Shown one piece after another: positions 17,430 to 29,389 of a DNA stretch of 64,000 nucleotides. Position 1 is the first letter of the stretch, and each line of letters begins with the position of its first letter. The stretch lies in assembly GCA_945867815.1 (NCBI GenBank), contig CAMBIX010000001.1, forward strand, positions 434,001-498,000. Direction: 5' to 3'. Under the pieces are notes generated by a model. It worked only from the letters and a program-made list of their open reading frames with translations, was not told the DNA's origin and did not search any database. The position numbers and the translations under genes are program-made. This DNA comes from an uncultured Veillonellaceae bacterium. GTDB taxonomy: Bacteria > Bacillota > Negativicutes > Veillonellales > Veillonellaceae.

Positions 17430-18101
17430 ATGTCTAAATCAAAAAAAGAGTCATCAAAAGAAACTATACTGCCATCCTTCATCAGTATAGCTGCCCCCTA
17501 TCGTACAGACTATATCATTGAAAAATCTCACTTTATAACTTCCGTCTGCCCTTGTCAAACGGAAGAAGAAGCACAAGCCTTTATTAACTGTATCAACAAG
17601 GAATTCTGGGATGCTTCCCACAATTGCACAGCCTACGCCTTAGGCCCCCGTCAAGAACAGCAACGCTCCTCTGATAACGGAGAACCCTCAGGTACAGCAG
17701 GCAAACCTATACTTGAAGTCCTAAAGAAAAAAGAAATTACCAACACGGCCATTGTCGTTACCCGTTACTTCGGTGGCATCAAACTAGGCGCTGGCGGTCT
17801 TATCCGCGCCTATTCGCATGCAGCCACTCTTGGCCTTGATGGCGCCCAAAAAGAACTGCACGCACCACGTAAGATAGTCATGCTTACCATCGATTACAGC
17901 CTATATAATCCATTAGAACAATACTTACAACAAAAAGACATTTACTTTACTAAGGCTTTCGAGGCTGCTGTAACCCTCACCCTTCAAATACCACCTGACC
18001 AATTAGAAAACATCCACCAAGAAATTATTAACCTAACCAATAATCATCTTGACTGGCAAGAAGGTAACACACTTTTTGCAACTATACCATTAAATGCATA
18101 G
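17430..18101 (+). CDS. yigZ: YigZ/IMPACT family protein
   Basis: 223 aa, UPF0029. The N-terminal domain contains EKSHFITSVCP, HNCTAYAL, SSDNGEPSGTAGKP and VVTRYFGGIKLGAGGL, the conserved core of the YigZ/IMPACT fold. A smaller C-terminal domain (residues about 140-215) follows. The family is widespread and probably acts on translation or RNA; the bacterial function is not settled. The start has AGGAGGGG just upstream. Its promoter faces that of csoR. Confidence 0.92.
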   Translation: MSKSKKESSKETILPSFISIAAPYRTDYIIEKSHFITSVCPCQTEEEAQAFINCINKEFWDASHNCTAYALGPRQEQQRSSDNGEPSGTAGKPILEVLKKKEITNTAIVVTRYFGGIKLGAGGLIRAYSHAATLGLDGAQKELHAPRKIVMLTIDYSLYNPLEQYLQQKDIYFTKAFEAAVTLTLQIPPDQLENIHQEIINLTNNHLDWQEGNTLFATIPLNA

Positions 18102-18129
18102 TTATATCAGCATACCTATGCTTAACCTG

Positions 18130-18164
18130 AAAAGAGGGCTGTAAGTAAATACTTACAGCCCTCT
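18130..18164 (-). terminator. Terminator hairpin between yigZ and the candidate RNA
   Basis: Perfect 14-base stem (GAGGGCTGTAAGTA and complement). The T-run (TTTT) follows only on the minus strand; on the plus side the stem is followed by CTCC. It may also stop yigZ transcription less efficiently. Confidence 0.75.
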
Positions 18165-18325
18165 CTCCGGACATGGATGCTTTTATACTCGCATTGAACG
18201 TTTCAGAAGTCCTGCCTTCTTGTCCATTCCTTTTCTATGAGAAAACAAGAAATAATTCTAATAACTCACAGAAAAGCAAGTACAAAATAACTACGAGTAA
18301 CAACACTGAACGCGTTGCTTACTAC
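18130..18325 (-). ncRNA. Candidate ~195-nt small RNA
   Basis: A minus-strand transcription unit without a convincing ORF: a promoter at 18360-18332, a body, and a terminator hairpin with U-tract at 18164-18130. The 3' half can fold into a small three-way arrangement: GGACA (about 18225) with TGTCC (about 18170), enclosing hairpins AGAAG/CTTCT and ATGC/GCAT. It matches no RNA family I recognise; length alone would fit 6S RNA, but the 5' and 3' ends are not complementary. A 14-codon frame (MDKKAGLLKRSMRV) exists in it but its Shine-Dalgarno spacing is poor. Confidence 0.4.
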
Positions 18326-18331
18326 GGTCAT

Positions 18332-18360
18332 AGTATACCCATACGATTCTCAATTGTGAA
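18332..18360 (-). promoter_or_regulatory. Promoter of the candidate small RNA
   Basis: Minus-strand TTCACA (18360-18355, five of six), a 17-base spacer and TATACT (18337-18332, five of six). No gene starts downstream on this strand before the terminator. Confidence 0.5.
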
Positions 18361-18712
18361 ATAACCTTATTTCATATCAAAAGCTAGGACTATTCACTTA
18401 TTTCTATATATAATCTACTTTTAACATTTTTTACTATATACTAATTAGAATAGGTTATACATACCAATAAATAGCAGTAATACCTTCTTACTTATTAACT
18501 ACTATACTAACTAATATATCGAAATTACTCTTTATTAGTAGACCTCATATAAACCTTTTATAAACTGCCTTTTTAGTTATAAATAAAGGTCTTAACCTAA
18601 ACGCATATATATACGTGATTTACACGAAACGCATATTAAATCTCTTTCTTCTCCCTACTATCTAGCTTCTTTATAAAAATTATGTATAATAGATGTAGAT
18701 GTTGAATATGCC
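18361..18712. other. AT-rich gap with no recognisable gene
   Basis: About 350 bases rich in TATA-like strings on both strands. I see no ORF with a ribosome-binding site and no strong hairpin. A TATAAT near 18685 is the probable -10 for the LysR-type gene. Confidence 0.5.
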
Positions 18713-18762: not shown

Positions 18763-19053
18763 ATGGATACATCGTACTATCATAATTTTGTTGTATTAGT
18801 TAATGTTGGTAATATGACACATGCAGCTCGTAACCTACATGTAACACAACCAGCACTAAGTAAGCAATTACGTTATTTGGAATCCGAATTCGGTACTCCT
18901 TTGTTACATATCAAACGAGGTCAACGAAGTCACGGCTTTCAATTAACAGAAGCAGGCAAGGTCTTTTATAACTACGCCCAACAACTTTGTGAATTAGAAT
19001 CATCAACCTATCAAACAATAAAACAGGTACTACAAAAGGGAGCACTCGCCTAA
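18763..19053 (+). CDS. LysR-type DNA-binding domain only (mini-LTTR)
   Basis: 96 aa, against about 300 for a full LysR regulator. It contains the complete winged HTH: residues 15-60 match the LTTR signature (NMTHAARNLHVTQPALSKQLRYLES), then FQLTEAGKVFYNYA and the start of the linker helix. No effector-binding domain follows in any frame. The last codons run into a 25-base-arm hairpin whose loop carries the stop codon. It has a strong RBS (GAGGGGG), so it may be a functional stand-alone HTH rather than mere debris; a truncated remnant is the alternative. Confidence 0.75.
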   Translation: MDTSYYHNFVVLVNVGNMTHAARNLHVTQPALSKQLRYLESEFGTPLLHIKRGQRSHGFQLTEAGKVFYNYAQQLCELESSTYQTIKQVLQKGALA

Positions 19054-19077
19054 GTGCTCCCTTTTGTAGTACCTGTT
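19022..19077. terminator. Very long bidirectional terminator, overlapping the end of the LysR-type gene
   Basis: Perfect 25-base arms (19022-19046 and 19053-19077) with a six-base loop that contains the stop codon. T-rich tails follow on both strands. It lies between two convergent genes and can serve both. Confidence 0.8.
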
Positions 19078-19128
19078 ATTTTATTTCTACAGTTTATAGG
19101 ACAAAGCCAAACTTTGCTATCCTACAAC

Positions 19129-28262: not shown

Positions 28263-28531
28263 ATAAGGTTCTCTCCTCTTCCACAAAATTTACCCCTATC
28301 TATTCACCTTATTATTACAAGAATCTACTTACAAACACTATTTTACACTCCCCCTATTGTAACTATCATCACCAGCTAGTCTAATTAATAAATAAGCTAA
28401 CTACAGCGTCTACCTATTAACCAATTATACCACCTGTTTATGTGATGCTTAAAACACTATACAAGCCATTTCCAGTAGGTTAGAATATAGATAAACGTTT
28501 TCAATTATTATATAGAGAAAGAAGGAATACT

Positions 28532-29389
28532 ATGGCTCACGAAGCAGCAAGTATGGTACGTCCCCCTGTTGAAATAAATACCTTAACCGTTCCTCTTACA
28601 GAATCCGGTTTAGGCGCTAATTGTCAAATGTGCAGTATGTTCTCTGGTGACCCTAATCGCCCTCTTGAAGCAGAAGAACTAGCTGAATATTTAGACCAAT
28701 TACAATCGATATACGGCCCTGCCTGTCAATCAGTAGACCGCATCTTTTTACTTGGTCTTGATCCCTTTAGCCTACCTACGGCAACCTTTGTAGAACTCTT
28801 GGAAGTAATTAACGAATTTTTACCCAACTTACGCGTTATTACTGCTTATGCTGATATCGAATCCATTAAAAGCAAGTCAGATGCCGAATTAGCCCAACTA
28901 GCTAAACTTCATGTGGATCAAATTTATGTCGGCGTCGAATCTGCTATTGATGAAATAAAAAATAAGCTCTACAGCGGTCTTAGCGTAGCCGAAACAAAGC
29001 AACAACTATTAGCCCTAAATGAAGCTGGCATCACCCATAGAGATATGTTCCTCTTAGGTGCCGGTGGACAAGGCCACGCCCAAGAATCTGCAGAAGCTAC
29101 AGCCCGTTTTATTAATGCCACTAAACCAGACATGGTTTTCTTTACTAGCATGACACGTATGCCTAGTGATGGCATTAATCCTAAAACGAATACATTAACA
29201 TTTATACCTGCTGGTAAAAAAGAAATTCTTTTAGAAGAAAAAGCCATTATCCAAGGTATTACGATTCCTAAGGTCTATTTCTGGGCTGCTCATCCTCTGG
29301 CTCCTGTTCGCTTAGAAGGTAAGCTGGAAGAAGAAAAAAAGCACATGGTAGCCGCTATCGATGAAAAGATAAAGGAGCTTGAAAACTAA
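28532..29389 (+). CDS. Radical-SAM-like protein with incomplete cluster motif
   Basis: 285 aa. The sequence follows the layout of radical SAM proteins of the kind that begin PPSE...TEGCPWNKCTFC: here it reads PPVEINTLTVPLTES, then GANCQMCSMF. Only two cysteines (31 and 34) of the three-cysteine 4Fe-4S motif are present; the first is replaced within SGLG. The barrel-like strands RIFLLGLDPF, ITAYAD, QIYVGVES, DMFLLGAGGQG and MVFFTSMTRMP are well preserved. It may be an inactive or altered-cofactor homologue. AAGGA precedes the ATG. Monocistronic on the plus strand, with a structured hairpin downstream. Confidence 0.7.
   Translation: MAHEAASMVRPPVEINTLTVPLTESGLGANCQMCSMFSGDPNRPLEAEELAEYLDQLQSIYGPACQSVDRIFLLGLDPFSLPTATFVELLEVINEFLPNLRVITAYADIESIKSKSDAELAQLAKLHVDQIYVGVESAIDEIKNKLYSGLSVAETKQQLLALNEAGITHRDMFLLGAGGQGHAQESAEATARFINATKPDMVFFTSMTRMPSDGINPKTNTLTFIPAGKKEILLEEKAIIQGITIPKVYFWAAHPLAPVRLEGKLEEEKKHMVAAIDEKIKELEN

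Follow-up and report, generated by a model that had tools for sequence, protein, structure and literature searches.

A short interval between yigZ and a LysR-type gene of an uncultured Veillonellaceae bacterium very probably encodes, on its minus strand, a trans-acting base-pairing small RNA (sRNA) of about 195 nt, which would work independently of Hfq and block the translation of mmdB. The parts of this gene, its complementarity to mmdB and the recurrence of the complementarity in three species were all obtained by computation. The interval is located in a stretch of 64,000 nucleotides (contig CAMBIX010000001.1, positions 434,001 to 498,000), which we call the window, and its features are collected in Table 1. 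A first-pass annotation had already suggested a minus-strand sRNA at this place; the promoter, the terminator and an antisense to mmdB in three species support it, and the target is a new addition.

Table 1. Features of the sRNA locus and its neighbours, in positions of the window.
Feature	Positions	Strand	Remarks
yigZ (UPF0029/DUF1949 family)	17430..18101	+	convergent neighbour
Intrinsic terminator	18129..18166	-	stem of about 15 bp, arms 18133-18147 and 18150-18164, UUUU
Predicted sRNA, about 195 nt	18131..18325	-	ends predicted from sequence; start placed 7 nt past the -10 box
Antisense segment	18166..18199	-	34 nt, against mmdB -7..+26 (G000:C8:36806); 16-bp core at 18171-18186
Structured domain (prediction)	18182..18287	-	three-way junction; outer helix takes in some of the antisense segment and encloses two hairpins
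Possible second-target segment	18242..18285	-	against the radical SAM start, 28514-28556 (+); single genome
Promoter TTCACA-17-TATACT	18332..18360	-	-35 TTCACA 18355-18360; -10 TATACT 18332-18337
LysR-type HTH protein, 96 aa	18763..19053	+	divergent neighbour; effector domain missing

Measured between the end of yigZ and the start of the LysR-type reading frame, both on the plus strand, the gap has 661 bases, which matches the 660 bases of the first-pass annotation. The same annotation took yigZ as the sole adjacent gene, and this was wrong, because the plus-strand LysR-type gene stands on the far side. Its product is truncated in two species (96 aa in the window, 95 aa in Veillonella magna), and it has 296-307 aa in 18 yigZ loci and 297 aa beside the moved locus of Veillonella montpellierensis; the 245 aa counted in genome G007 are cut by the end of the locus. 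In five g2 genomes the yigZ locus showed no such gene. The 96-aa protein may possibly regulate the sRNA locus. In the window, the end of its reading frame falls within a long hairpin at about 19020-19080, which looks like a two-way terminator.

The proposed minus-strand promoter is present, agrees with the consensus at 10 of 12 letters, and has the extended form TATTTCACA-N15-GGTATACT. A scan of 1.6 kb gave 6 promoter-like sites against 5.4 expected, and the promoter taken alone is not above chance. Yet its position and orientation are conserved in relatives. Across 28 family genomes the extended form occurred without any mismatch at two places only, the window locus and that of V. montpellierensis. 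The -35 box is overlapped by a perfect palindrome of 18 bp, TGAAATAACCTTATTTCA, at 18357-18374; as a conserved element it was rejected, since relatives retain one half, which belongs to the promoter, and not the other.

The transcript would end at the intrinsic terminator, whose stem has four U next to it on the minus strand; the plus strand lacks a U-run. The terminator had been called strong, with its U-run on the minus strand only: the strand is right and the stem is indeed strong, but the U-run is short, and for this reason the consensus scan did not list it. The reading that this stem serves only as terminator of yigZ was rejected on the missing plus-strand U-run in the window; the hairpin of V. 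magna could serve both strands. The body of the RNA holds no ATG reading frame of at least 35 aa, and the best one preceded by a Shine-Dalgarno-like AAAAGGA has 14 aa, so the earlier view that no credible ORF is present was borne out. The three-way fold also returned in our prediction: a three-way junction together with the terminator has -76.5 kcal/mol and a z of -8.2, and the body minus the terminator has z -4.45. A comparison with 6S RNA and Rfam had been proposed: in the window none of 4227 families reaches its gathering cut-off, and in the interval, searched at E<=10, nothing comes near a cut-off and 6S is not matched. 6S RNA and all other Rfam families were therefore rejected, having no covariance-model match.

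The target was found by searching the whole genome of the same organism with the interval. At E<=0.001 the one foreign match was the start of mmdB (G000:C8:36801-36830), the others being the locus itself and its own inverted terminator. With the RNA alone as query and a relaxed threshold, mmdB matched at E 9.4e-5 and the next match had E 0.62. By its matches to PF03977 (E 1.2e-155) and TIGR01109, the 372-aa mmdB product is a beta-family member of the Na+-transporting decarboxylases. It is preceded by genes which, from their translations and from the known methylmalonyl-CoA decarboxylase operon, we take to be mce, mmdA, mmdD and mmdC. The sodium-pumping decarboxylase is a central energy enzyme of Veillonella relatives.

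In the duplex, 16 uninterrupted pairs run across the mmdB start codon, followed on one side by a 2-nt mismatch and 11 pairs (one of them G-U) and on the other by a 1-nt mismatch and 4 pairs. Folding of whole-RNA duplexes allowed large internal loops and discriminated poorly, so local complementarity was scored instead. The window RNA scored 59.0 against its own mmdB, compared with a mean of 21.8 and a maximum of 33.5 for 100 dinucleotide shuffles of the target, and mmdB ranked first of 66 start regions (window plus mmd operon). Because mmdB is on another contig (G000:C8) and not opposite the RNA, this is not a cis-antisense RNA. By sequence, its features are those of a trans-encoded sRNA: an intergenic unit with its own promoter and intrinsic terminator, neither a credible coding sequence nor a small-protein relative, and complementarity to a distant mRNA that exceeds background and recurs in relatives.

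When the 301-base interval was used as a BLAST query, 3 of 60 genomes matched, which were the window genome itself (G000), V. magna DSM 19857 (G011) and V. montpellierensis DSM 17217 (G026); in the last one the match was at its mmdB only. Absence of the interval in close relatives had been named beforehand as an argument against the RNA. V. magna passes this check and keeps in the same gap the same antisense segment, a TATACT box and a minus-strand terminator of other sequence; most other relatives keep the promoter before a small-protein gene. In windows of 20 nt, the window and V. magna RNAs are identical at 18-19 positions only over the antisense segment, and elsewhere at 10-14, as for shuffled 20-mers (mean 11.6, maximum 14). 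The V. montpellierensis RNA is on another contig beside the LysR gene, the locus having moved together with it, and has the exact promoter and an ORF of 54 aa besides the antisense segment and a terminator whose sequence differs from that of the window. Outside the antisense segment the three RNA bodies are unalignable.

Both of these RNAs are also complementary to the mmdB of their own genome. In V. magna the segment has 28 nt and scores 59.5 (shuffle maximum 38.0), and mmdB is first of the 144 start regions of the contig, the next scoring 35.5. In V. montpellierensis it has 40 nt, reaches the Shine-Dalgarno sequence and scores 66.5 (shuffle maximum 31.5). None of the three RNAs pairs better with the mmdB of another species than with its own: 59.0 versus 58.5 and 58.5 for the window, 59.5 versus 57.5 and 59.5 for V. 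magna, 66.5 versus 52 and 59 for V. montpellierensis. The third base of mmdB codon 8 gives TTG in two species and TTA in V. montpellierensis, and the RNA follows it, a G-C pair becoming A-U. This single fully compensated pair suggests only modest covariation, and common descent would account for much of the shared sequence.

The antisense was detected in only 3 of the 28 family genomes. In six of the seven genomes of g3, the genus label of V. magna, we found no promoter at yigZ, no small protein and, within the sensitivity of BLAST, no second copy of the mmdB start. Nor did queries with the g4 or g3 start region reveal a convincing second copy in other species. A scan of the genome collection returned 79 matching stretches, of which four are in Veillonella (two in V. 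magna, two in V. montpellierensis) and the other 75 are presumed to be chance. Short matches in two genes presumed from their translations to be ribonucleotide reductase-like (L089) and dinB-like (L090) were likewise judged to be chance, because they are inside coding sequence.

The shared segment could also be a piece of the mmdB start that was copied into the gap and stayed as a relic without RNA function, possibly read on the plus strand as a short peptide MDAFILALN..., but we consider this unlikely. An in-frame ORF with an MmdB-like start does exist on the plus strand (18173-18364, 63 aa), and MDAFMLALN... stands at the corresponding position of V. magna. However, the ATG has no Shine-Dalgarno sequence, and the similarity of the window and V. 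magna peptides stops at residue 9, which is the end of the RNA duplex. Moreover, 18-19 of 20 positions of the fragment are preserved amid unalignable surroundings, and in three species a promoter and a terminator of the minus strand flank it.

We favor an sRNA directed at mmdB, and the following mechanism may be drawn for it. Pairing of sRNAs around the start codon is an established way to block translation initiation. The pairing found here spans the mmdB start codon, and therefore an initiation block would be expected. The 3' region of the sRNA, beside the terminator, would pair with the translation start of mmdB and keep the 30S subunit from binding, and the long duplex would probably be cleaved. 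As a result MmdB, the membrane sodium-pump subunit, would be lowered independently of the remaining subunits encoded by the mce-mmdA-mmdD-mmdC-mmdB operon. It is from the sequence that we infer transcription, repression of mmdB and this discoordinate effect.

The calculated energies are compatible with such pairing. Opening the two partners costs 14.1 and 12.3 kcal/mol in the window, 13.9 and 12.7 in V. magna, and 12.0 and 12.1 in V. montpellierensis, against duplex energies of -46.2, -45.4 and -50.5 kcal/mol, which leaves a net energy of about -20, -19 and -26 kcal/mol, respectively. What speaks against it is that the window and V. magna RNAs have most of their antisense segment paired in the predicted folds, with the part complementary to the coding region folded away. 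In these two RNAs the core CAUCCAUG needs only 1.5-2.1 kcal/mol for opening, which makes it plausible that the duplex begins at the start codon and then zippers. The exposed CAUCCAUGU would be the likely first contact; the remaining antisense segment would be held in the structured domain and freed on zippering.

Independence from Hfq is deduced from the genomes. No Hfq (PF17209) was identified in 18 Veillonellaceae genomes searched out of the 28 of the family, the window genome included, and therefore an Hfq-free mode with long pairing is expected; an Hfq-dependent sRNA would need a host with Hfq, which the search did not find in the window genome. Outside the family, the same model was positive for 6 of the 12 order genomes searched and for 5 of the 14 controls, with E. 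coli and B. subtilis among them.

Another alternative is a real sRNA whose main target is not mmdB and whose 5' domain acts on other mRNAs, for example that of the radical SAM gene (PF04055) at 28532, or on a protein; this is somewhat less likely still than the relic. The radical SAM start was second of the 66 start regions with a score of 43.5 (next 30.5, mean 23.2), and an imperfect pairing of 44 nt covers its Shine-Dalgarno sequence and ATG (-18..+25). In addition, the body folds better than shuffles even minus the terminator, as given above. However, the 5' domain is unconserved in V. magna and V. montpellierensis, and an orthologue of the radical SAM gene was not found in the loci examined, the V. 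magna contig included. By a Gumbel estimate from the shuffle mean and standard deviation, a score of 43.5 is expected about 0.2 times per genome by chance.

The syntenic locus of many relatives carries a small-protein gene. yigZ is present in 27 of the 28 family genomes, and in 18 of these (six g2, twelve g4) a variant of the promoter is found downstream of it on the minus strand, directly before an ORF of 56-72 aa. Of 61 genomes of the order, a profile of the small protein, in which the V. montpellierensis ORF was included, matched 20, namely the 6 of g2 and the 14 of g4 (G023 weakly), and matched neither the window genome nor the seven g3 genomes, V. magna among them. A second profile from 17 proteins of relatives, excluding V. 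montpellierensis, still finds the V. montpellierensis ORF with E 3.6e-9, and shows nothing significant in all frames of the window and V. magna RNAs (best E 0.51). Thus the V. montpellierensis RNA carries both the small-protein ORF and the mmdB antisense, as a dual-function RNA would, and the window RNA carries the pairing segment only. The proteins form an uncharacterised family of 54-72 aa (loci L206-L225), found among the order genomes in Veillonellaceae only, with a motif RL...W-HP-T-E; they had no match in Pfam or NCBIfam.

That the window element is itself the mRNA of a very short peptide descended from this gene is very improbable: the syntenic promoter drives the 56-72 aa protein in relatives and a 14-codon ORF, MDKKAGLLKRSMRV, follows AAAAGGA, but the 17-protein profile has no significant match in either RNA and the 14-codon ORF is absent from V. 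magna.

Among the protein-coding versions, eight genomes were scored for mmdB antisense (three g2, five g4) and gave 19.5-27.5 against shuffle means of 21.5-23.3. The value of G004 (27.5) was above all 40 shuffles (maximum 26.0), but the same site was below the maximum in G001 (34.5) and G010 (31.0), so we do not claim an antisense for these versions.

The regulator gene sgrR adjoins sgrS in enteric bacteria. There the SgrS/SgrT pair has a small 5' ORF in some species, and some keep the pairing RNA without the ORF; the conserved part of SgrS is the pairing region just before the terminator, complementary to the start region of a transporter gene, according to PMC4021124. The window RNA is similar in that its pairing part precedes the terminator, is alone conserved and is complementary to a transporter start. 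Our locus also resembles SgrS/SgrT in having a small ORF in some species and not in others, and a regulator gene (LysR-type) adjacent. Unlike SgrS, it has no Rfam match, its host has no Hfq found, and the pairing covers 28-40 nt compared with about 13 conserved nt for SgrS (PMC4021124). Most relatives here keep the small protein without detectable mmdB antisense. With no covariance-model match in Rfam, the RNA was not assigned to SgrS.

By analogy, the best reading is that the sRNA shares a history with the small-protein gene, as SgrS does with SgrT. A further guess from this pair is that the small protein, too, acts on the decarboxylase. A broader picture, which we regard as doubtful, is that one promoter position beside yigZ/LysR has different products according to species, namely the mRNA of a small protein, a dual RNA with this protein plus the mmdB antisense, or an RNA with the antisense alone. 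Protein and RNA would then be alternative restraints on the same sodium-pumping decarboxylase, and the species would show how a protein regulator and an RNA regulator convert into one another, stage by stage, in a lineage without Hfq.

Staphylococcus aureus RNAIII forms a long duplex over the ribosome-binding site independently of Hfq; the window RNA is similar in its long Hfq-free duplex and differs in RNA, size, target and organism. 6S RNA has about 190 nt and a long interrupted helix, and the window RNA is similar in both; unlike 6S RNA, it lacks the Rfam match. VcdRP of Vibrio cholerae is also a dual RNA, with a small protein and a base-pairing segment, and acts on carbon metabolism (PMC8672173), but it belongs to another organism with other targets, and the window species has no protein part.

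Our literature search on Veillonella and Negativicutes with sRNA, Hfq, non-coding RNA and decarboxylases returned no description of a base-pairing sRNA in Veillonella. The main text of a transcriptome study of V. dispar (PMC10100942) contains neither an sRNA nor an Hfq term, and the accessible part of an oral metatranscriptome paper lists for Veillonella only the cobalamin riboswitch and the L20 leader (PMC7160235). The present candidate would come with a named target and a precisely placed pairing site. The target gene is central to sodium-coupled energy conservation in lactate and succinate fermentation, and in the family no Hfq was found. Together with its relatives, so that cases with the protein, with the RNA and with both stand side by side, it also allows a comparative study of how small-protein genes and regulatory RNAs interconvert.

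The MmdB tree places the three species that carry the RNA (mmdB loci L034-L036 of G000, G011 and G026) in one group with g2. In the YigZ tree V. montpellierensis groups with g4, unlike in the MmdB tree, and the disagreement may possibly reflect an exchange of mmdB.
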